From assembly GCA_025786725.1 (NCBI GenBank), contig JAHLTZ010000052.1:46035-110034 (forward strand): 64,000 nt of DNA, in the 5' to 3' direction. Shown here piece after piece: positions 4,433 to 55,400 of the stretch. How positions within the stretch are numbered: the first letter of the stretch is position 1; each line of letters opens with the position of its first letter. The stretch comes from Syncephalis fuscata. Its lineage: Eukaryota > Zoopagomycota > Zoopagomycetes > Zoopagales > Piptocephalidaceae. Under the pieces are notes generated by a model. It worked only from the letters and a program-made list of their open reading frames with translations, was not told where the DNA came from and did no database searches. A program made the translations under genes and the position numbers.

Positions 4433-4939
4433 TTAAATAGAAATGCTGACACTTTTTTGAGCAGAAGTAAGACGAGAGCCGATGTTAATATCGGCACAGT
4501 TTTCGTAGTGCTCAATTTTGCCTGGGCCCAAATGAGCGGCATTCCACACCCAGCGAATGACCTTGCGACCGCTAATACCAGCTGGAATGTTGACGGTCCA
4601 TGGGCCAACCTTGCCTGGAGCAGCACAGTTGTTCTTTTGGGCAATACGACGGGCATTGCCGAGATTAGTGTCTAAGATATAGACCTCGCACATACCGATA
4701 TGTGGAGCAGTGATGGTAAAACCGAGCGTAACGCTGCGGCCCACGTTGGTGACTCGGCCAGCCGGCTCACCACGACAAACGCCTCGAGTGTTGGGATTTT
4801 TCAAATCGTCAATTCTGGTTGATGCTTTTTCGATAGCACGCGGAGTTGGGCTGGACATGTAGCCATGGGCAGCAACATCCGAGATTGCAGAGAGTGCCAC
4901 AATGGCAAACAGGCAGAGAGTGGCACCAATGCGAACCAT
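4433..4939 (-). CDS. LPMO-like secreted copper protein (chitin-binding type-4/AA-family-like), 168 aa, single exon
   Basis: The N-terminus has a signal peptide of about 24 residues ending DVAA, and predicted cleavage exposes His25 in HGYMSSPTPR. An N-terminal histidine directly after the signal is the first half of the copper 'histidine brace' of lytic polysaccharide monooxygenases. A second histidine sits in RWVWNAAHLGPGKIEHYENC, and several Cys (GVCRG, GMCEV, KNNCAAP, ENCADINI) could pair in disulfides. The C-terminal WxW...YxNCADI pattern is seen across LPMO families that oxidise chitin, glucans or related polymers. At 168 aa it is a minimal catalytic domain with no carbohydrate-binding module. 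The exact AA family cannot be decided by eye; a copper-binding, non-oxidase relative (X325-type) is an alternative. No intron is seen. Confidence 0.82.
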   Translation of the reverse strand: MVRIGATLCLFAIVALSAISDVAAHGYMSSPTPRAIEKASTRIDDLKNPNTRGVCRGEPAGRVTNVGRSVTLGFTITAPHIGMCEVYILDTNLGNARRIAQKNNCAAPGKVGPWTVNIPAGISGRKVIRWVWNAAHLGPGKIEHYENCADINIGSRLTSAQKSVSISI

Positions 4940-6230
4940 TTTAATAGCTGACTAGAGGGAAATAGCAGTAGTTTGTAGGGCGACGAATTAGCTGATAGGA
5001 ATAAAAAGATTAAGTTAGTGTTGCTTTCGAGTGTTTTTTGAATCAATCAATATCGATAGCAGAAGAAGTGTTTAAAATCGTTAGACTACTTGAGTGTTAA
5101 TAGCTGAGTAATGAGCGTATGAATGTTATGCGGAACTAGAGAGAAGTATTTTATGACTTTATTTATAGCTTTCCAAGTCCATATAGACATGGCCTTAAGA
5201 TACATTAATAATCCTGCAGCATCAGTAAATAATTGCTCCTGTAGCATAGGCTGTAGAATAGATACATATTACAGTAGTAGCACAAATGGACAATGATGTG
5301 GCTGCTTTTCGTTAGAATACACCAACCGACTCCCGTTCCATCTTGCGACTCCTCTGCAGAAAAGCCGTCGTATTCACTCAGTGGATTTGTAAAACACAAA
5401 ATAGTAAAATGTTTATTCATTTAAGCCTTAACTAGGTAAAACAGCCATTATCCAACCTTGTAAATGGCTTTTAGAGTACTGAGAATAACAAATGGCGTGA
5501 TATGTAAATGTTACATTGATACTATTATGTGGCTGTGGCCAAGGATTTTCATAAAGTGCAGATTCTGATGCAATATGATAATTGTCAAGTTTTTGTGTCT
5601 ATGTTAAGACAGCACGGTACTCCAAGGCCTATATGTTAAAATAAAACTACTGCAACCAGCTTGTTGTATATAATTTGTTCATATTTTACTTACTAGTGTA
5701 TTTTATTTCTATTAAAATACAGGCTAAAAATAAAAAAGCATAAGCACCATTCGAGTATATACTTTTATCCATTATTTTGCTTAGTATTTCAGCTAAATTA
5801 AGCTTTTACTGGACATTGTATTAATTGCTCATATTTGTGTTACAGTGTATTTAAAAAACTGAAAAATATGCCTGTGTAGCTTATAACTTGTTGACGGTAC
5901 ACGGCCCTCAACGGTATTGTTTCCATCACTCGAGGACCATATGTTGGCCCATGATCTCAATAAGCGTATTATTATGGTTTCTTAGTACTACCAAGCCTTG
6001 TGGTTTAATTTGCCCCTTCTACAGCGTTGCACTATATCGGTTCATCTATTTAGCTAATTTTGTAGCCATTAGCCAGTTGAACGTGAACGATTATAATAAA
6101 AGCCAATAATAATAATGGATAGTATTATTGTATTAATACAATTCATAGTATTGCGTTAAGTATCCAAGTTTAGCTACAAGTACCTTTATTACAATTGCTT
6201 GCTTGCTTAAAAGTATAATTAGTAATAATG
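4940..6230. other. Intergenic region with one possible gene fragment
   Basis: Upstream of the LPMO-like gene, 4940-5150 is probably its promoter. At about 5893-5985 the plus strand is richer in G+C and reads about 30 codons (DGTRPSTVLFPSLEDHMLAH...) to a stop. It looks like a fragment of a coding exon but I do not recognise the source. Nothing else is supported. Confidence 0.3.
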
Positions 6231-45239: not shown

Positions 45240-46040
45240 ACCGATTCTATTGCTACTGTGTCTGTGCTTTATTATTATGCTTGAATAGCTATAAAACACT
45301 TGTGATTACTTTTCAATAAACAATATAGGCTAATTATAATACTTATATATATATGCTACATCCTTGGCCAACACTCATCCTGCAATAGCTAGATTTACTT
45401 TAAATAATACATGATCTTGATAAAGTTACTATGCATACACTCAATAAGCAATAGAAGCAGTATGAGTTGAATTTTTAACAAATACAGCTAGCGACAAGCA
45501 AGCAACTTTTACCAATAATGCTAGCCATTAGACTATGCAACGATATAAGACAAAAACAAAACAAAACAAATGTGTGTAAATAGTAGTATTAACATTATAG
45601 TGTATATATATGCATGAACAAATGAGCGAGATAAACAAAAACCATAATGAGCAGAGCTAACGCCGGACGGCAAAACCGTTCCAAATAAACTGCAATTACT
45701 ATATACTAGAATTACATATAATAGAATGAATACACAATAGAAATGCCGCGAGTAATGGTATTGAAGCTGTGGTGCATATAATCTAATGAGCAGAATGAGC
45801 AATTACTTTGAAGAATGTAGTGAATAGAATGTAGCCAGTACATTATAAAATGATATGTAGTGATAGAAATATACAATTTGAATGCTGTGGATGGATAGAG
45901 GATATATGCATACTGGATAATAAATATACGACAATGAACACTTTGATAGCCGATGCCATTCAACACAAAGTCATATTCAATAAAATGAATATGTATTTTA
46001 ATTGCTTGAATGAGACTAATTTAATCATTTGAACATCAAA
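45240..46040 (-). repeat. Dispersed fold-back family, copy D (minus orientation)
   Basis: Directly repeated at 53540-54250. Shared blocks include TTATGCTTGA...CTATAAAACACTT followed by CAATAAACAATAT, and a minus-strand series ending ATTTATTATCCAGTATGCA and TATATCCTCTAT. The hydrophobic ORFs of 84-89 codons on the minus strand (Ile/Leu/Tyr/His-rich, HSIHYI- and HAYIYT-like) recur in the other copies and probably reflect repeat composition. Confidence 0.65.
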
Positions 46041-46794: not shown

Positions 46795-47296
46795 GAATTT
46801 TATTTATACATCTATACAACCCACTATATGATGATGATTATATTTAAAAATCATTATACTCTCAAATATACACAATTAATATTACCTAACTCTAACTACT
46901 ACACATGTAAACAGGTTTACTAATATTTGTTATGCTTATGGCATCAATAAGCACTCTACAACTTTTAGCACAACTTTACAAATACTTACTAATTGGTTTA
47001 CTTTTCTGTTTTATATATCCAGCATTGCTATAAATACAACAGTAATTATCACATTAAATAAAAGATCATTATTTTATCAAACATTTATTTGCCTTTATTG
47101 TTCTACTCTGGTCCAGCCATAGCAGTTAGTACTATACAATTGTGTAGTTTGTATATCCTAAATTTTAAGTATAGTATACACCAATATACAATTATTGATA
47201 AATATGCAAGTGTACACACAATGTTAGCAGTTGACACAGTTGCTATGATCATGCAATATCTAACAGCACCATTATTAACCATTATAAGCAAATGAG
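46795..47296. repeat. Outer left arm of the 6.4-kb nested palindrome
   Basis: Inverted copy of 52.70-53.24 kb. Matching blocks run from the outer end (CATCTATACAACCCACTATA against TATAGTGAGTTGTATAGATC) to the inner end. Read on its minus strand, the inner part is open for about 62 codons (ATVSTANIVCTLAY, IVYWCILYLKFRIYKL). The right arm keeps nearly the same peptide. Confidence 0.8.
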
Positions 47297-48065
47297 TGTA
47301 GTAATCATTAACAATTAATCAGTAGACTAATTGTTAGACACAGCATTATTAGTTAATTAACTAATCATAAGCAATAATCATTATTAACCAATTGACTACT
47401 TAATTATTAAACAAATTATTGTTCACTGCTTAATAATTAATGATTAACCAGTAATCACCATTAATTAACTAACTAGCAGATTGACTAATACGGTTGGCTA
47501 CTACTATTAATCAACTACATCGGTTAATTAACTAGGCTAATTAATTAACTAACTGACAAGTATTAAACACCAAGCATTATTAACTAACTATTAAACATCA
47601 ATCATTATTTATTAATTAACTAGCTATTAACTAATATCAAATAAATTATTATTGACTAATTAATTAACTATTAACTGGATTATTAATTAACACAGTTTAA
47701 CTTTATAGTCTATATTCTATTATTAAATAACAAGGGATACCCTTACATTTTTAGTTAATTATTATTGACTAATTACTTAACTTTAGTCTATTTTTATTAT
47801 CAAAATGGCAAGGGATACTCTTGCATTTTAGTTAATTATTACTTAACTTTTATTAATTTTGTTATATTTTATTGTTAAAATGGCAAAAATATCTTACATT
47901 CTAGTATTACTTAATTAAAGTTAATAAAAGTTAAGTAATTGTTAGTTAATTAACTAATGGTAATGATACCGTTAACAATTTAGTTAACTTGTTAATTAAC
48001 TAATTACTTACTTTTAATTAACTTTGTCTATTTTTATTAACAAAATGCAAGGATACCCTTACATT
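47297..48065. repeat. TTAATTAACT-rich low-complexity flank (left)
   Basis: Dense variants of TTAATTAACTAA and ACTTAACTTTTAGTTAA, with interspersed GCAAGGGATACCCTTACATT motifs that also occur between the palindrome units. No coding potential. Confidence 0.8.
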
Positions 48066-48990
48066 TTAGTCAAATATTACTTAACTTTTTACTTAACTTT
48101 AGTTCTTTTAATTACTTTTTTAGTCGTATATTTGGTCGATTTTTGTTGGATTTTTGTTGGATTTTTTTGGGAAAAACGGCCCAACTCCCCGTATTTTTAA
48201 TTCCACAGATACTTGTCCTAAAAATACACGGTGCCACTTGTTCGAACCGCAAGAAGCAGGCGCGTCGATCCTGATATGCTAAATAATCGCCAAAAATCGT
48301 GGGAATGCGTGAAAAATACGCGGAGTTGGACCTCCATACAAAAAACGGCACTTTTTGCATGTTTTGATTTTTAAGTCATTGGATAAATTTTTGGCGATTT
48401 TTTGAATATATAGATCAGCGCACCATATTATTGCGGTCGAACGAGTGGTCCTGTGTATTTTTAGATCAATTATCCGTAGAGTTAAAAATACGGGAGTTTG
48501 ATGACTAGTTTATAGTGGCATATTTCACGAAATCCTAAGATATCCCCTATAACCAGCAAACTAGAACTCCCGTATTTTTAACTCTACGGATACTTGCTCT
48601 AAAAATACACAGGACCACTCGTTCGACCGCAATAATATGGTGCGTCGATCTATATATTCGAAAAAATCGCCAAAAATTTATCCAATGAATTAAAAATCAA
48701 AACATGCAAAAAGTGCCGTTTTTTGTATGGAGGTCCAACTCCGCGTATTTTTCACGCATTCCCACGATTTTTGGCGATTTTTAGCATATCAGGATCGACG
48801 CGCCTGCTTCTTGCGGTTCGAACAAGTGGCACCGTGTATTTTTAGGACAAGTATCCGTGGAATTAAAAATACGGGGAGTTGGGCCGTTTTTCCCAAAAAA
48901 ATCCGACAAAAATCCAACAAAAATCGACCAAATATACGGCTAAAAAAGTAATTAAAAGTTAACTAAAGTTAAGTAAAAAGTTAAGTAATA
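48066..48990. repeat. Palindrome unit 1 (centre 48499-48564, + orientation)
   Basis: Two ~430-bp arms are inverted copies of each other. Each carries TGGAGGTCCAACTCCGCG, GATCGACGCGCC, TTGCGGTTCGAACAAGTGG and GTGTATTTTTAG blocks. The arms flank a 66-bp non-repeated centre that starts TGATGACTAGTTTATAGTGG and ends CCAGCAAACTAG. The arms contain 74-82-codon open frames reading outward from the centre side. Confidence 0.9.
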
Positions 48991-49189
48991 TTTGACTAGA
49001 AATGTAAGGGTATCCCTTGCATTTTGTTAATAAATATAGACTAAAAGTTAACTAAAGTTAAGTAATTAGTTAAGTAATTAACAATTAACTAATGTTAAAC
49101 GTTATCAACATTAGTTAATTAACTTAACTAATTACTTAACTTTTAGTTAACTTTTAGTCTATATTTATTAACAAAATAGCAAGGATACC
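48991..49189. repeat. Inter-unit linker 1, itself palindromic
   Basis: AGTTAAGTAA/TTACTTAACT-rich; the centre of symmetry is near 49105 around AATGTTAAACGTTATCAACATT. It has GTAAGGGTATCCCTTGC on one side and its inverse on the other. Confidence 0.75.
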
Positions 49190-50130
49190 CTTACATTTCT
49201 AGTCAAATATTACTTAACTTTTTACTTAACTTTAGTTAACTTTTAATTACCTTTTTTAGCCGTATATTTGGTCGATTTTTGTTGGATTTTTGTCGGATTT
49301 TTTGGGAAAAACGGTCCCAACTCCCCGTATTTTTAATTCCACGGATACTTGACCTAAAAATACACGGTGCCACTTGTTCGAACCGCAAGAAGCAGGCGCG
49401 TCGATCCTGATATGCTAAAAATCGCCAAAAATCGTGGGAATGCGTGAAAAATACGCGGAGTTGGACCTCCATACAAAAAACGGCACTTTTTGCATGTTTT
49501 GATTTTTAATTCATTGGATAAATTTTTGGCGATTTTTTTGAATATTAGATCGACGCACCATATTATTGCGGTCCGAACGAGTGGTCCTGTGTATTTTTAG
49601 AGCAAGTATCCGTAGAATTAAAAATACGCGAAGTTCTAGTTTGCTGGTTATAGGGGATATTTAGGATTTCGTAAATATGCCACTATAAACTAGTCATCAA
49701 ACTTCACGTATTTTTAACTCTACGGATACTTGCTCTAAAAATACACAGGACCACTCGTTCGACCGCAATAATATGGTGCGCCGATCTATATATTCAAAAA
49801 AATCGCCAAAAATTTATCCAATGAATTAAAAATCAAAACATGCAAAAAGTGCCGTTTTTTGTATGGAGGTCCAACTCCGCGTATTTTTCACGCATTCCCA
49901 CGATTTTTGGCGATTTTTTAGCATATCAGGATCGACGCGCCTGCTTCTTGCGGTTCGAACAAGTGGCACCGTGTATTTTTAGGACAAGTATCCGTGGAAT
50001 TAAAAATACGGGGAGTTGGGCCGTTTTTCCCAAAAAAATCCGACAAAAATCCAACAAAAATCGACCAAATATACGGCTAAAAAAGGTAATTAAAAGTTAA
50101 CTAAAGTTAAGTAAAAAGTTAAGTAATATT
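49190..50130. repeat. Palindrome unit 2 (centre 49636-49699, - orientation)
   Basis: Same arms as unit 1 with small indels and substitutions. The centre reads CTAGTTTGCTGGTTATAGGG...AAACTAGTCATCA, the reverse complement of the unit 1 centre. Confidence 0.9.
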
Positions 50131-50335
50131 TACTAAAATGTAAGGGTATCCTTGCTATTTTGTTAATAAATATAGACTAAAAGTTAACTAAAAGTTAAGT
50201 AATAGTTAAGTAATTAAAAGTTAACTAATGGTTAAACGGTTAACAACTTAGTTAATTGTTAATTACTTAACTAATTACTTAACTTTTAGTTAACTTTTAG
50301 TCTATATTTATTAACAAAATAGCAAGGGATACCCT
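50131..50335. repeat. Inter-unit linker 2, palindromic
   Basis: Same motif set as linker 1; symmetry centre near 50235 at GGTTAAACGGTTAACAAC. It also lies near the midpoint of the whole 6.4-kb structure. Confidence 0.7.
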
Positions 50336-51275
50336 TACATTTTAGTCAAATATTACTTAACTTTTTACTTAACTTTAGTTAACTTTTAATTAACTTTTTT
50401 AGTCGTATATTTGGTCGATTTTTGTTGGATTTTTGTCGGATTTTTTTGGGAAAAACGGCCCAACTCCCCGTATTTTTAATTCCACGGATACTTGTCCTAA
50501 AAATACACGGTGCCACTTGTTCGAACCGCAAGAAGCAGGCGCGTCGATCCTGATATGCTAAAAAATGCCAAAAATCGTGGGAATGCGTGAAAAATACGCG
50601 GAGTTGGACCTCCATACAAAAAACGGCACTTTTTGCATGTTTTGATTTTTAATTCATTGGATAAATTTTTGGCGATTTTTTTGAATATATAGATCGCGCA
50701 CCATATTATTGCGGTCAGAACGAGTGGTCCTGTGTATTTTTAGAGCAAGTATCCGTAGAGTTAAAAATACGGGAAGTTTAGTTTGCTGGTTATAGGGGAT
50801 ATCTTAGGATTCGTGAAATATGCCACTATAAACTAGTCATCAAACTTCCCGTATTTTTAACTCTACGGATACTTGCTCTAAAAATACACAGGACCACTCG
50901 TTCGACCGCAATAATATGGTGCGTCGATCTATATATTCAAAAAATCGCCAAAAATTTATCCAATGAATTAAAAATCAAAACATGCAAAAAGTGCCGTTTT
51001 TTGTATGGAGGTCCAACTCCGCGTATTTTTCACGCATTCCCACGATTTTTGGCGATTTTTAGCATATCAGGATCGACGCGCCTGCTTCTTGCGGTTCGAA
51101 CAAGTGGCACCGTGTATTTTTAGGACAAGTATCCGTGGAATTAAAAATACGGGGAGTTGGGCCGTTTTTCCCAAAAAATCCAACAAAAATCCAACAAAAA
51201 TCGACCAAATATACGGCTAAAAAAGTTAATTAAAAGTTAACTAAAGTTAAGTAAAAAGTTAAGTAATATTTGACT
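50336..51275. repeat. Palindrome unit 3 (centre about 50779-50842, - orientation)
   Basis: Arms as in units 1-2. The centre has the same orientation as unit 2 (GTTTGCTGGTTATAGGGGAT...CTAGTCATCA). Confidence 0.9.
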
Positions 51276-51479
51276 AAAATGTAAGGGTATCCCTTGCTAT
51301 TTTGTTAATAAATATAGACTAAAAGTTAACTAAAGTTAAGTAATTAGTTAAGTAATTAACAAGTTAACTAATGTTAAACGGTTATCATTACATTAGTTAA
51401 TTATTAACTACATTAACTATTACTTAACTTTTAGTTAACTTTTAGTCTATATTTATTAACAAAATAGCAAGGATACCCT
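51276..51479. repeat. Inter-unit linker 3, palindromic
   Basis: Same motif set as the other linkers; symmetry centre near 51395. Confidence 0.7.
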
Positions 51480-52420
51480 TACATTTTAGTCAAATATTAC
51501 TTAACTTTTTACTTAACTTTAGTTAACTTTTAATTAACTTTTTTAGCCGTATATTTGGTCGATTTTTGTTGGATTTTTGTTGGATTTTTTGGGAAAAACG
51601 GCCCAACTCCCCGTATTTTTAATTCCACGGATACTTGTCCTAAAAATACACGGTGCCACTTGTTCGAACCGCAAGAAGCAGGCGCGTCGATCCTGATATG
51701 CTAAAAATCGCCAAAAATCGTGGGAATGCGTGAAAAATACGCGGAGTTGGACCTCCATACAAAAAACGGCACTTTTTGCATGTTTTGATTTTTAATTCAT
51801 TGGATAAATTTTTGGCGATTTTTTGAATATATAGATCGACGCACCATATTATTGCGGTCGAACGAGTGGTCCTGTGTATTTTTAGAGCAATTATCCGTAG
51901 AGTTAAAAATACGGGAGTTTGATGACTAGTTATAGTGGATATTTAGAATCGTAAATATCCCCTATAACAGCAACTAGAACTCCCGTATTTTTAACTCTAC
52001 GGATAATTGCTCTAAAAATACACAGGACCACTCGTTCGACCGCAATGATATGGTGCGTCGATCTATATATTCAAAAAATCGCCAAAAATTTATCCAATGA
52101 ATTAAAAATCAAAACATGCAAAAAGTGCCGTTTTTTGTATGGAGGTCCAACTCCGCGTATTTTTCACGCATTCCCACGATTTTTGGCGATTTTTAGCATA
52201 TCAGGATCGACGCGCCTGCTTCTTGCGGTTCGAACAAGTGGCACCGTGTATTTTTAGGACAAGTATCCGTGGAATTAAAAATACGGGGAGTTGGGCCGTT
52301 TTTCCCAAAAAATCCGACAAAAATCCAACAAAAATCGACCAAATATACGGCTAAAAAAGTTAATTAAAAGTTAACTAAAGTTAAGTAAAAAGTTAAGTAA
52401 TATTAACTAGAAATGTAAGG
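51480..52420. repeat. Palindrome unit 4 (centre 51920-51977, + orientation)
   Basis: Arms as in the other units. The centre is shorter (about 58 bp) and matches the unit 1 orientation (TGATGACTAGTTATAGTGG...CAGCAACTAG) with several small deletions. Confidence 0.9.
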
Positions 52421-52699
52421 GTATCCTTGCATTTTGTTAATAAAATATAGACTAAAAGTTATAAGTTAATTAGTTAAGTAATTACAATTAACTAAGTTGT
52501 TAAACGTTATCATTACCATTAGTTAATTAACTAACTAATTATTAACTAATTAATTATGCTATGCTTAATAATTAGTTTATTGGTTATTTATTAATGATTA
52601 CTACTGATTATTTGTTTATATTGATTAAATAGCACTAATATTATGGTTGGCGTATTAGTGCCATTAGTAACATATGATTGTGCATTGCAGCATTGGCGC
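52421..52699. repeat. TTAATTAACT-rich flank (right)
   Basis: The short counterpart of the left flank, with AGTTAATTAGTTAAGTAATT- and CCATTAGTTAATTAACTAAC-like sequence, then AT-rich sequence leading into the outer right arm. It is much shorter than the left flank, so the structure is not symmetrical here. Confidence 0.7.
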
Positions 52700-53236
52700 T
52701 AGATAATGCATAAACCATTAGCAGTATATATGCTGGACATATCCAATTATAGTGGCGCTAGCTATCGTATGATCATAGCAACTGTGTCAACTATTAGCAT
52801 TGTGTGTACACTTGCATATTCATCAGTAATTGTATATTGGTGTATACCATACCTAAAATTTAGGATATATAAACTACGCAATTGTATAGTATTATGTAGA
52901 AGTATAACTGCTATGGTTGGACTAGAGTATAACAGGGAAGACAAATGAGTGTTTGATAAAAGATGTTTTTTATTTGATATGATAATTATTGCTGCATTTA
53001 TAGCAATGTTGGATATAGAGAAGAGAAGAAAGTAAACCGATTATTAAGTATTTGTAAATTTGTGATAAAATGTTGTAGAGTATCTGTTGATGTCATAAAC
53101 ATAACAAATGTTAGCAAATCTGTTTAACATGTGTAATAGTTAGAATTAGGTAATATTACCGTGTAAATTTGAAATTATAATGATTTTTAAATATAGTAAT
53201 CATCATATAGTGAGTTGTATAGATCTATAAATAAAT
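52700..53236. repeat. Outer right arm of the 6.4-kb nested palindrome
   Basis: Inverted copy of 46.80-47.30 kb. On the plus strand an 80-codon frame includes MIIATVSTISIVCTLAY, VIVYWCIPYLKFRIYKLR and NCIVL, closely similar to the left-arm peptide. The frame survives in both arms, but it may only reflect recent duplication. Confidence 0.8.
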
Positions 53237-53539
53237 TTTCAATAAGATAGCAGAATATTGATGTATATACAATACTTGTATCTGTAGCTATATCCGTTAG
53301 TATTAAAGCATCAATTGTAATTACCCCCAAGTGCTATGATATGGATTAGAAACTGATTGTCTATCAATAGATCATTGACGCTTTATATGATTTTAGATAG
53401 TTTAACGCTTCATTATATGAGTTGACCAGTATTATAGCAAAACAGCAAATATGTTGTAGTATTTCAAGTGGATAAACACATTTATAATTGATTGATAATG
53501 TATTATTGACATTAAATGCCTATAATACTATTATTGATA

Positions 53540-54440
53540 CACTTATAGTTTGTCGTTATGCTTGAGCGACTATAAAACACTTTATTATTATTTACAATAA
53601 ACAATATGCATTACATGTATGGCTAGTATTGATCTTATAGCCATGACCTTGATGAAGGTGTACGAATAGCAATGCCGAAATTATAGTGCATGCAGCTCAA
53701 TGGAAGAATTAAGTGAAATATATTACTAATGAAGCTACAAACAAACAAACAATAGTTCTTAATAAAGTGTTAATACTTATAATAAAATAGTGTACAAGCG
53801 AATAAGTATATAATAGGAAAGACATAAATAACAGTCGCAAAATCACTGAGCATATATACTTAAATAGATGAGCGATATTAGTTGAAATTTTATTAATAAT
53901 AGTGCTAGAAAACAAAAATAAATATACTTTTGGATAGAGGAAGGCTAGGCAATTATAGCATGATATATAAAATGATAAATGTACGGTAAGAAAGTTATAA
54001 AACAACGTTGATGTTATAGTGTGCATAGTGGAATGAGCGGAATGAGTAAAGTATATTGCCGCATATAATAAATAGAATGTGTTTAGTATATCATAGAATG
54101 ATATATGGTAGTGTAGAATAGAGTGGGAATGATATAGGCGAATAGAGGATATATGTGTACTGAATATATGCATCTGATAATAATCTACAATGATGATATT
54201 TGATAACTGATGTCATTCACCACCCATTATCATGTTCAGTAGACTGGATGTTATTAAATATTAGTCATTTAACCACCAAATAACAATAAGTAATGATGTG
54301 ATGATTAAATAAAATTCACCACTTGTTTCCGTGTTCAATAGAACAAAATGTAGTCAACTACGCGAACGTTATTAAAAAAAGTCATTTGACCACCAAATCA
54401 CATTGCATGTAATGATATAATAATTAAACAAATATAATAA
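53540..54440 (-). repeat. Dispersed fold-back family, copy E (minus arm)
   Basis: Inverse of 54.82-55.33 kb over about 500 bp with high identity (for example AAACAACGTTGATGTTATAG against CTATAACATCAACGTTGTTT). It is directly repeated with copy D. The outer part carries two tandem end-motifs (CATTTAACCACC and CATTTGACCACC), each with an ACTACGCGAACG- or GTAGACTGGATG-like block. The 154-codon ORF at 54173-53709 lies inside and is His/Ile/Tyr/Ser-rich with no domain. Confidence 0.8.
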
Positions 54441-54819
54441 TAAATGACATGATACACGTTGGTTCAATGAGCAGATGTTATAACAAGGTTATAATTAAAA
54501 ACCAGTAGACTATTGAAAATAGATAATCAGATAAATATACAGTGATATAGAAAACTGTTAAATGGAAAAGAATATAACATGTTGATAACATACAACCAGC
54601 TAGATCATCATATGATTATATAGCTATATGAGTAATTATATGGTATATTGTCAACCAGCTATTTTAACTATTGGACAGGTTAATATACAGCTATATGACC
54701 AACTATAAATATATATATATACAAATAAATAAACAAACAGCTATAAGACTGTATATACCGCACTATAACTAATTTTATTTACTAATAGTTGTTTATTGTT
54801 TAGTGTGATTTGGGGCCCA

Positions 54820-55400
54820 AATGATTAGTTTTAATAACATTCGCGTAGTTGAACTACATTTTGTTCTATTGAACACGGAAACAAGTGGTGAGTTTTATTT
54901 AATCATCACATCATTACATTTATTGTTATTTGGTGGTTAAATGACTAATATTTAATAACATCCAGTCTACTGAACATGATAATGGGTGGTGAATGACATC
55001 AGTTATCAAATACTCATCATTGTAGATTTATTATCCAGATGCATATATTCAGTACACATATATCCTCTATTCGCCTATATCATTCCCACTCTATTCTACA
55101 CTACCATATATCATTCTATGATATACTAAACACATTCTATTTATATATGCGGCAATATACTTTACTCATTCCGCTCATTCCACTATGCACACTATAACAT
55201 CAACGTTGTTTTATAAACTTTCTTACCGTACATTTAGCATTTTATATATCATGCTATAATCGCCTAGCCTTCCTCTATCCAAAAGTATATTTATTTTTGT
55301 TCTAGCACTATTATTAATAAAATTGACCTATTTTGCTCATGCACATACATATATGTTTAGTAACTTTAACAAGGCTAATCGTCGCTCAACATTGGATATT
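54820..55400 (+). repeat. Dispersed fold-back family, copy F (plus arm, pairs with E)
   Basis: Best reference copy of the family. Tandem end-motifs lie at about 54832 and 54949 (GGTGGTTAAATGAC); then come CATTCGCGTAGTTGAACTAC, CTATTGAACACGG, TAGATTTATTATCCAGATGC, TATATCCTCTATTCGCC, TATATCATTCCCACTC and CTCATTCCGCTCATTCCACT. Together with E it forms an inverted repeat around a ~380-bp AT-rich centre. The ORFs at 55323-55911 downstream are hydrophobic, low-complexity and probably not genes. Confidence 0.8.

Follow-up and report, generated by a model that had tools for sequence, protein, structure and literature searches.

The centromeric inverted repeats of Candida tropicalis are homogenized between chromosomes and follow a shared plan, with a retrotransposon in one centromere (PMC4741521). 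Among other regional centromeres with inverted repeats, those of Pichia kudriavzevii are homogenized and those of Komagataella phaffii are not (PMC12711049). The mosaic centromeres of Mucor circinelloides carry retrotransposon copies around the kinetochore site in a fungus from which CENP-A is absent (review, PMC7385547), and in Dictyostelium, clusters of DIRS-1 lie in the putative centromere (PMC5006619). The centromeres of early-diverging fungi have been little described. Here, we analyze a 64,000-nucleotide stretch of the genome of Syncephalis fuscata (Zoopagomycota), referred to as the window, which corresponds to positions 46035 to 110034 of the 110,034-base contig C248 (genome of 28.95 Mb, 299 contigs) and which contains an array of nested palindromes. 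We propose from sequence that this array, together with its rims and outer inverted arms, probably represents a regional centromere of the inverted-repeat type or its pericentric portion, whose alternating form is unusual. The proposal follows from the small number of loci, their one shared layout, a core that evolves in concert, a retroelement that appears trapped there, a CENP-A-like histone gene, and the gene-poor setting.

The likeness to C. tropicalis lies in inverted repeats that are alike between loci, a common plan, and a retrotransposon, whereas the middle here consists of nested palindromes in alternating series, without a unique mid core, and the outer arms are more diverged (PMC4741521). 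P. kudriavzevii and K. phaffii are ascomycete yeasts, and alternating hairpin units are not described in the part of that account used here (PMC12711049). S. fuscata resembles Mucor in being an early-diverging fungus with retrotransposons at the proposed centromere, but Mucor lacks CENP-A and a CENP-A-like H3 is encoded here. The gathering of DIRS1-like elements recalls Dictyostelium, although in S. fuscata the element inserts only rarely into a satellite and does not make up its bulk. A search of the open literature, with most subscription papers and bioRxiv outside its scope, found no paper joining Syncephalis, genome, and centromere, none joining centromere, inverted repeat, and early-diverging fungi, and, for centromere with Zoopagomycota, no title about Zoopagomycota centromeres among those listed.

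The array lies between two outer arms that are inverted copies of each other, as an earlier note on this DNA had claimed, with 83.5% identity over 497 aligned columns (46795-47300 versus approximately 52745-53238). That note had also described four hairpin units of about 1.14 kb with arms of about 430 bp and a centre of about 60 bp. Units do begin at approximately 48126, 49262, 50405, and 51549, with periods of 1136, 1143, and 1144 bp (1134 to 1143 bp between matched blocks), but their number depends on the assembly. The hairpin holds, with a centre of 60 to 70 bp between an arm and its inverted copy, whereas the arm proper measures about 373 bp, longer figures including linker. The linkers (324 to 334 bp) are palindromic as described, each consisting of one stretch of about 200 bp that is present twice, inverted and overlapping. 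The longest perfect inverted pair among those listed, 446 nt at 100% identity (50847-51292 with 51471-51916), spans linker 3-4, and unit 4 pairs with itself over 484 nt at 97%. Within an array arm, positions 60 to 376 are about 71% identical to the reverse complement of the arm, which makes the arm itself an imperfect palindrome, a feature that the earlier note did not mention. Palindromes thus occur at four levels: inside the arm, arm to arm, unit to unit across the linkers, and outer arm to outer arm. The fold computed for one strand of unit 2 was a single hairpin with an energy of -465 kcal/mol, compared to a mean of -92 in 20 dinucleotide-preserving shuffles (z = -99), which excludes a chance origin of this fold. 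The words TTAACT/AGTTAA reach 31 per kb in the left rim versus 1.2 per kb at 1-44 kb. The array arms that were read contain GGTTCGAAC (on the reverse strand in 49262-49634), which we take to be like a transfer RNA (tRNA) B box. The features are as follows, with GC denoting guanine plus cytosine content.

46795-47300, + strand: left outer arm, pairing in inverted orientation with the right arm
47300-48110, + strand: left inner rim, 21% GC, many TTAATTAA / TTAACT words, empty site of the DIRS1-like element at about 47670
48126-48937: unit 1, with arm (+) 48126-48495, centre 48495-48565, arm (-) 48568-48937
48938-49261: linker 1-2, two inverted overlapping copies of a stretch of about 200 bp
49262-50074: unit 2, with arm (+) 49262-49634, centre 49635-49703, arm (-) 49701-50074; centre opposite to unit 1
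50075-50404: linker 2-3, built like linker 1-2
50405-51214: unit 3, with arm (+) 50405-50777, centre 50779-50846, arm (-) 50844-51214; centre as in unit 2
51215-51548: linker 3-4, built like linker 1-2, crossed by the perfect 446-nt inverted repeat
51549-52348: unit 4, with arm (+) 51549-51916, centre 51916-51978, arm (-) 51981-52348; centre degenerate, orientation ambiguous
52470-52690, - strand: right inner rim, short, 23% GC
52690-53238, - strand: outer right arm, with 96-98% copies on C24, C102, and C173 (one locus)
53886-54402 and 54804-55324: separate inverted pair of about 0.5 kb in the right flank, a dispersed genome repeat that is not array specific

The array is confined to few places in the genome. 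A 441-bp unit query comprising arm and centre gave at least 132 matches (match counts are lower bounds), all on ten contigs (C24, C34, C102, C173, C201, C239, C248, C253, C262, and C272), nine of which end inside an array, the exception being C248. The outer-arm query gave 16 matches, 15 of them on the array contigs or C297 and one a 73-bp piece on C168. Nine were near whole, including the query itself (the 8 other places at 81-99%), C34 carried two thirds of the arm, and five were pieces of about 100 bp (four on C272 and one on C297). The C297 stretch matches the start of C272 at 99.6% over 1.2 kb and is probably redundant with it. A control query taken from the flank palindrome (53886-54402) gave 872 first-look candidates; 40 of them were scored and lay on 26 contigs, four of these contigs being the window's own locus. 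This dispersal ruled out the flank palindrome (53886-55324) as a pericentromeric mark. This repeat family also forms inverted pairs at other places, among them C157 and C267.

Contigs and loci are not equivalent in this assembly. The right flank of C248 showed 0 differences from that of C102 over 10.8 kb, a single substitution in a 7.8-kb comparison with C173, and 3 substitutions together with small gaps against the start of the 726-kb contig C24 over 10.8 kb; C24, C102, and C173 were thus ruled out as separate loci. C248 and C102 share their last base (window end 64000, C248:110034), beyond which C24 continues; this indicates redundant assembly paths. The arrays of these same-flank contigs differ by 0.4 to 6.5% per 500-column window (three comparisons, end windows included) and also in length, and therefore unit number and fine array sequence are unreliable. 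Along the left side of C248, C253 differs by no more than 2% over about 0.9 kb, and by no more than 1% in the arm, before it diverges. Altogether, eight distinct junctions between array and flank were found (C248 left, C24 with its equivalents C102, C173, and C248 right, C253, C239, C262, C201, C34, and the C272 start), and these correspond to a minimum of four arrays. A ninth rim, at the end of C272, breaks off before reaching a unit; this contig has array at its start, an arm/rim composite without array at 33-36 kb, and a rim split by a retroelement at 44-49 kb. Homology between flanks fades within about 3 kb of the array, and farther out the flanks have little in common except shared repeats.

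Sequence identity within the core is high regardless of locus. The comparison took in 61 array arms with a minimum length of 340 bp, shorter ones being dropped, and treated C24, C102, C173, and C248 as one locus. Identity averaged 97.5% across distinct loci (1339 pairs, lowest 90.8%), 98.4% inside a locus group (491 pairs), and 98.2% inside one hairpin (29 pairs). The outer arms of seven junctions (C272 excluded as too short, C34 represented by two thirds only) averaged 86.0% in 21 pairs, 17 of which fell at 80.8 to 87.0%. Taken together, these identities suggest that the array evolves in concert across all compared loci and the outer arms only within subgroups. The array arms alternate in direction throughout, once the cross-matches of about 80% from the self-palindromic arm are set aside. 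The asymmetric unit centres occur in both orientations (of the 31 read, 18 point in one direction, 11 in the opposite one, and 2 are ambiguous), which the earlier note did not report, and both orientations were present in all seven contigs with at least three centres, although some of these share a locus, so that the events are fewer. Inversion through recombination between arms would explain these flips.

A 4.5-kb element interrupts the array or rim on C201 (365578-370103), C34, and C272, in three copies that are 99.9% alike, the C34 copy being about 80 bp shorter. The C201 copy matches RVT_1, RT_RNaseH, Dam, and Phage_integrase (reverse transcriptase, RNase H, methyltransferase, and tyrosine recombinase), a set that we take to mark DIRS1-like elements. 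The element contains a 132-bp direct repeat, internal and terminal, and is inserted in a TTAACT-rich site, of which the window holds the empty form at about 47670, matching the joined flanks of the C272 site at 94%, gaps included. A 501-bp query from its end, which is blind to copies without that end, found the three copies and two partial relatives elsewhere (C75, 232 bp at 96%; C101, 73%). All three copies that have the end thus lie in the array or inner rim, and none was found in full elsewhere.

The genome also encodes proteins expected at a centromere. A canonical H3 lies on C223 and a divergent H3 on C157. In the latter, loop 1 is long, a tryptophan precedes helix 2, and the tail is altered, features that we assume mark CENP-A. 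C65 bears a divergent H3 with equal scores, probably a redundant copy of that on C157. The C157 gene has introns and was spliced by eye; the two best of 176 PDB matches of its product were cnp1, presumably the CENP-A of fission yeast, at 140.7 bits, and the best H3 scored 133.5. Ndc80 is encoded in the genome, and Piwi domains of Argonautes were found at three places.

At the window's locus, inverted repeats surround a core in gene-poor DNA, and the repeats are homogenized between chromosomes in the manner of the C. tropicalis type, if the loci are assumed to lie on different chromosomes. The nonrepetitive mid core of the C. tropicalis and fission-yeast types is absent, as the middle consists entirely of repeat units. 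In such a centromere, the palindromic units, or the gaps between them, would carry the CENP-A nucleosomes and the kinetochore. The units would be kept alike, and their centres flipped, as inverted arms undergo gene conversion and crossing-over both within and between clustered centromeres, and transcripts of either strand, being long hairpins, could supply Argonaute-dependent heterochromatin. The idea of a distinct Zoopagomycota centromere type is more tentative, a possibility to which we give limited credence: CENP-A would sit on alternating, multilevel nested palindromes that fold into hairpins, unit inversion and interchromosomal exchange would homogenize the core, a DIRS1-like element would settle there, and the site could be marked by a cruciform or hairpin shape of the DNA instead of by its sequence.

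Several observations weigh against a centromere. The array core is not rich in adenine and thymine (AT-rich), as the earlier note had held it to be: the array has 34.3% GC versus 34.1% in the window, and the rims alone (47300-48110 and 52470-52690) are AT-rich at 21-23% GC. The core does not stand out from the rim in every comparison, given that 4 of the 21 outer-arm pairs reach 92.5 to 99.6% (C239/C201, 92.5%; C239/C262, 93.1%; C262/C201, 97.1%; C248 left/C253, 99.6%), and the homogeneity of the array may be inflated by consensus errors of the assembly. The 49-kb C272 bears several composites, which look like centromere relics side by side, and thus clustered copies, where a simple one-array centromere predicts otherwise. 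No TTAGGGx3 was present in the assembly, and a looser pattern gave one short TTAGG run, inside C234; because no telomeres were found, chromosomes, and hence one array per chromosome, are not countable. C248 is the single contig that bridges left arm, array, and right arm, and it is possibly a chimera, since nine of the ten contigs end in array. The lead of cnp1 over H3 is only 7 bits, so that the CENP-A-like assignment owes as much to the loop. One domain model for CENP-C found no match, which says little for an intron-bearing gene, and a chromo-shadow search found none either, but neither did its controls. The centromere idea of the earlier note, which had named wide dispersal with no CENP-A signal beforehand as grounds for abandoning it, is therefore upheld in part: the array is not dispersed, and the eight junctions, six of them near an ORF of an ordinary Pfam family, the homogenized core, the retroelement with no full copy found elsewhere, and the CENP-A-like histone favor it, whereas the AT content of the core and the clustering on C272 do not.

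We considered that the arrays could instead be a heterochromatic satellite, such as a knob or silent island without a centromere role, grown from a palindromic element. No functional result favors a centromere over such a satellite, C272 has several composites in 49 kb, and the genome contains a second large palindromic repeat family. Given the few loci, the shared layout of arm, rim, and array, and a CENP-A-like histone in the genome, a centromere is the more economical explanation, and we regard such a silent satellite as rather doubtful. A subtelomeric satellite, in which arrays at chromosome ends account for the contig stops and exchange between ends homogenizes them, is consistent with the nine of ten array contigs that end in array, with flank homology that decays to about 3 kb from the array, and with the lack of telomeres in the assembly. 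This explanation is unlikely, since C248 is flanked on both sides, with a right flank that is the start of the 726-kb C24, array or rim occurs at both ends of C272, and open reading frames (ORFs) of conserved families (G-beta, Gpi16, Hydantoinase_A, and PPR) lie only 4 to 13 kb away.

Foldback transposons have inverted outer arms and internal repeats, and several insertions of such an element would resemble what is seen here. The arrays have no sharp common outer boundary, however, as homology continues beyond the arms for 0.15 to about 2 kb, a distance that varies by locus; the 113-aa array ORF, the one that was searched, has no relative, and the unit and outer-arm searches of the genome found no dispersed copies, which together make a foldback origin improbable. 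We judge it very improbable that the structure is mostly an assembly artefact arising from palindromic reads piled up as spurious units. Redundant contigs do exist, and contigs with a common right flank have arrays that diverge by 0.4-6.5% per 500-column window and vary in length, but the alternating unit is present on ten contigs with eight different flanks, so that the doubt is limited to unit number and fine sequence. We therefore retain the regional centromere as the preferred interpretation.

The surroundings of the array are gene poor, as had been claimed, from about 43.7 to 56.2 kb according to the ORF listings, and a Pfam scan of ten ORFs (89 to 167 aa) within this stretch found no family match. 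The 113-aa ORF in the array, which has no Pfam family, was not accepted as a gene. In the flanks, 20 of the 54 listed ORFs were scanned with Pfam, in addition to the C201 retroelement copy, and a matched ORF was found 4 to 13 kb from the arm at six of the eight junctions, with no Pfam match near C34 or left of C248 (one ORF scanned each). The families by junction were as follows.

C24: G-protein beta
C253: Hydantoinase_A and steroid dehydrogenase
C239: short-chain dehydrogenase and Gpi16
C262: SH3/RA
C201: cytochrome b5/desaturase
C272: PPR

The window also contains a short-chain dehydrogenase (3-932, - strand), whose nearest named relatives are from S. plumigaleata (68%, 65%, and 57%), S. pseudoplumigaleata (55%), and S. 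fuscata (50%), and an ORF at 4436-4951 (- strand) that matches LPMO_10. An Rfam scan of the window found a tRNA and nothing else. ARAGORN placed a tRNA-Thr in the window, the same one on C24, and none in the other 12 of the 13 loci scanned out of 43, so that no clustering of tRNA genes was seen.

In summary, the array at this locus has several features of an inverted-repeat centromere, here probably one made of palindromes, and its possible meaning extends beyond S. fuscata. Fully palindromic, homogenized units offer a direct test of whether non-B DNA shape specifies centromeres, and the DIRS1-like copies in the arrays offer a test of centromere homing outside the social amoebae. If the centromere interpretation is true, a CENP-A-bearing relative with palindromic centromeres would aid the reconstruction of the ancestral fungal state.

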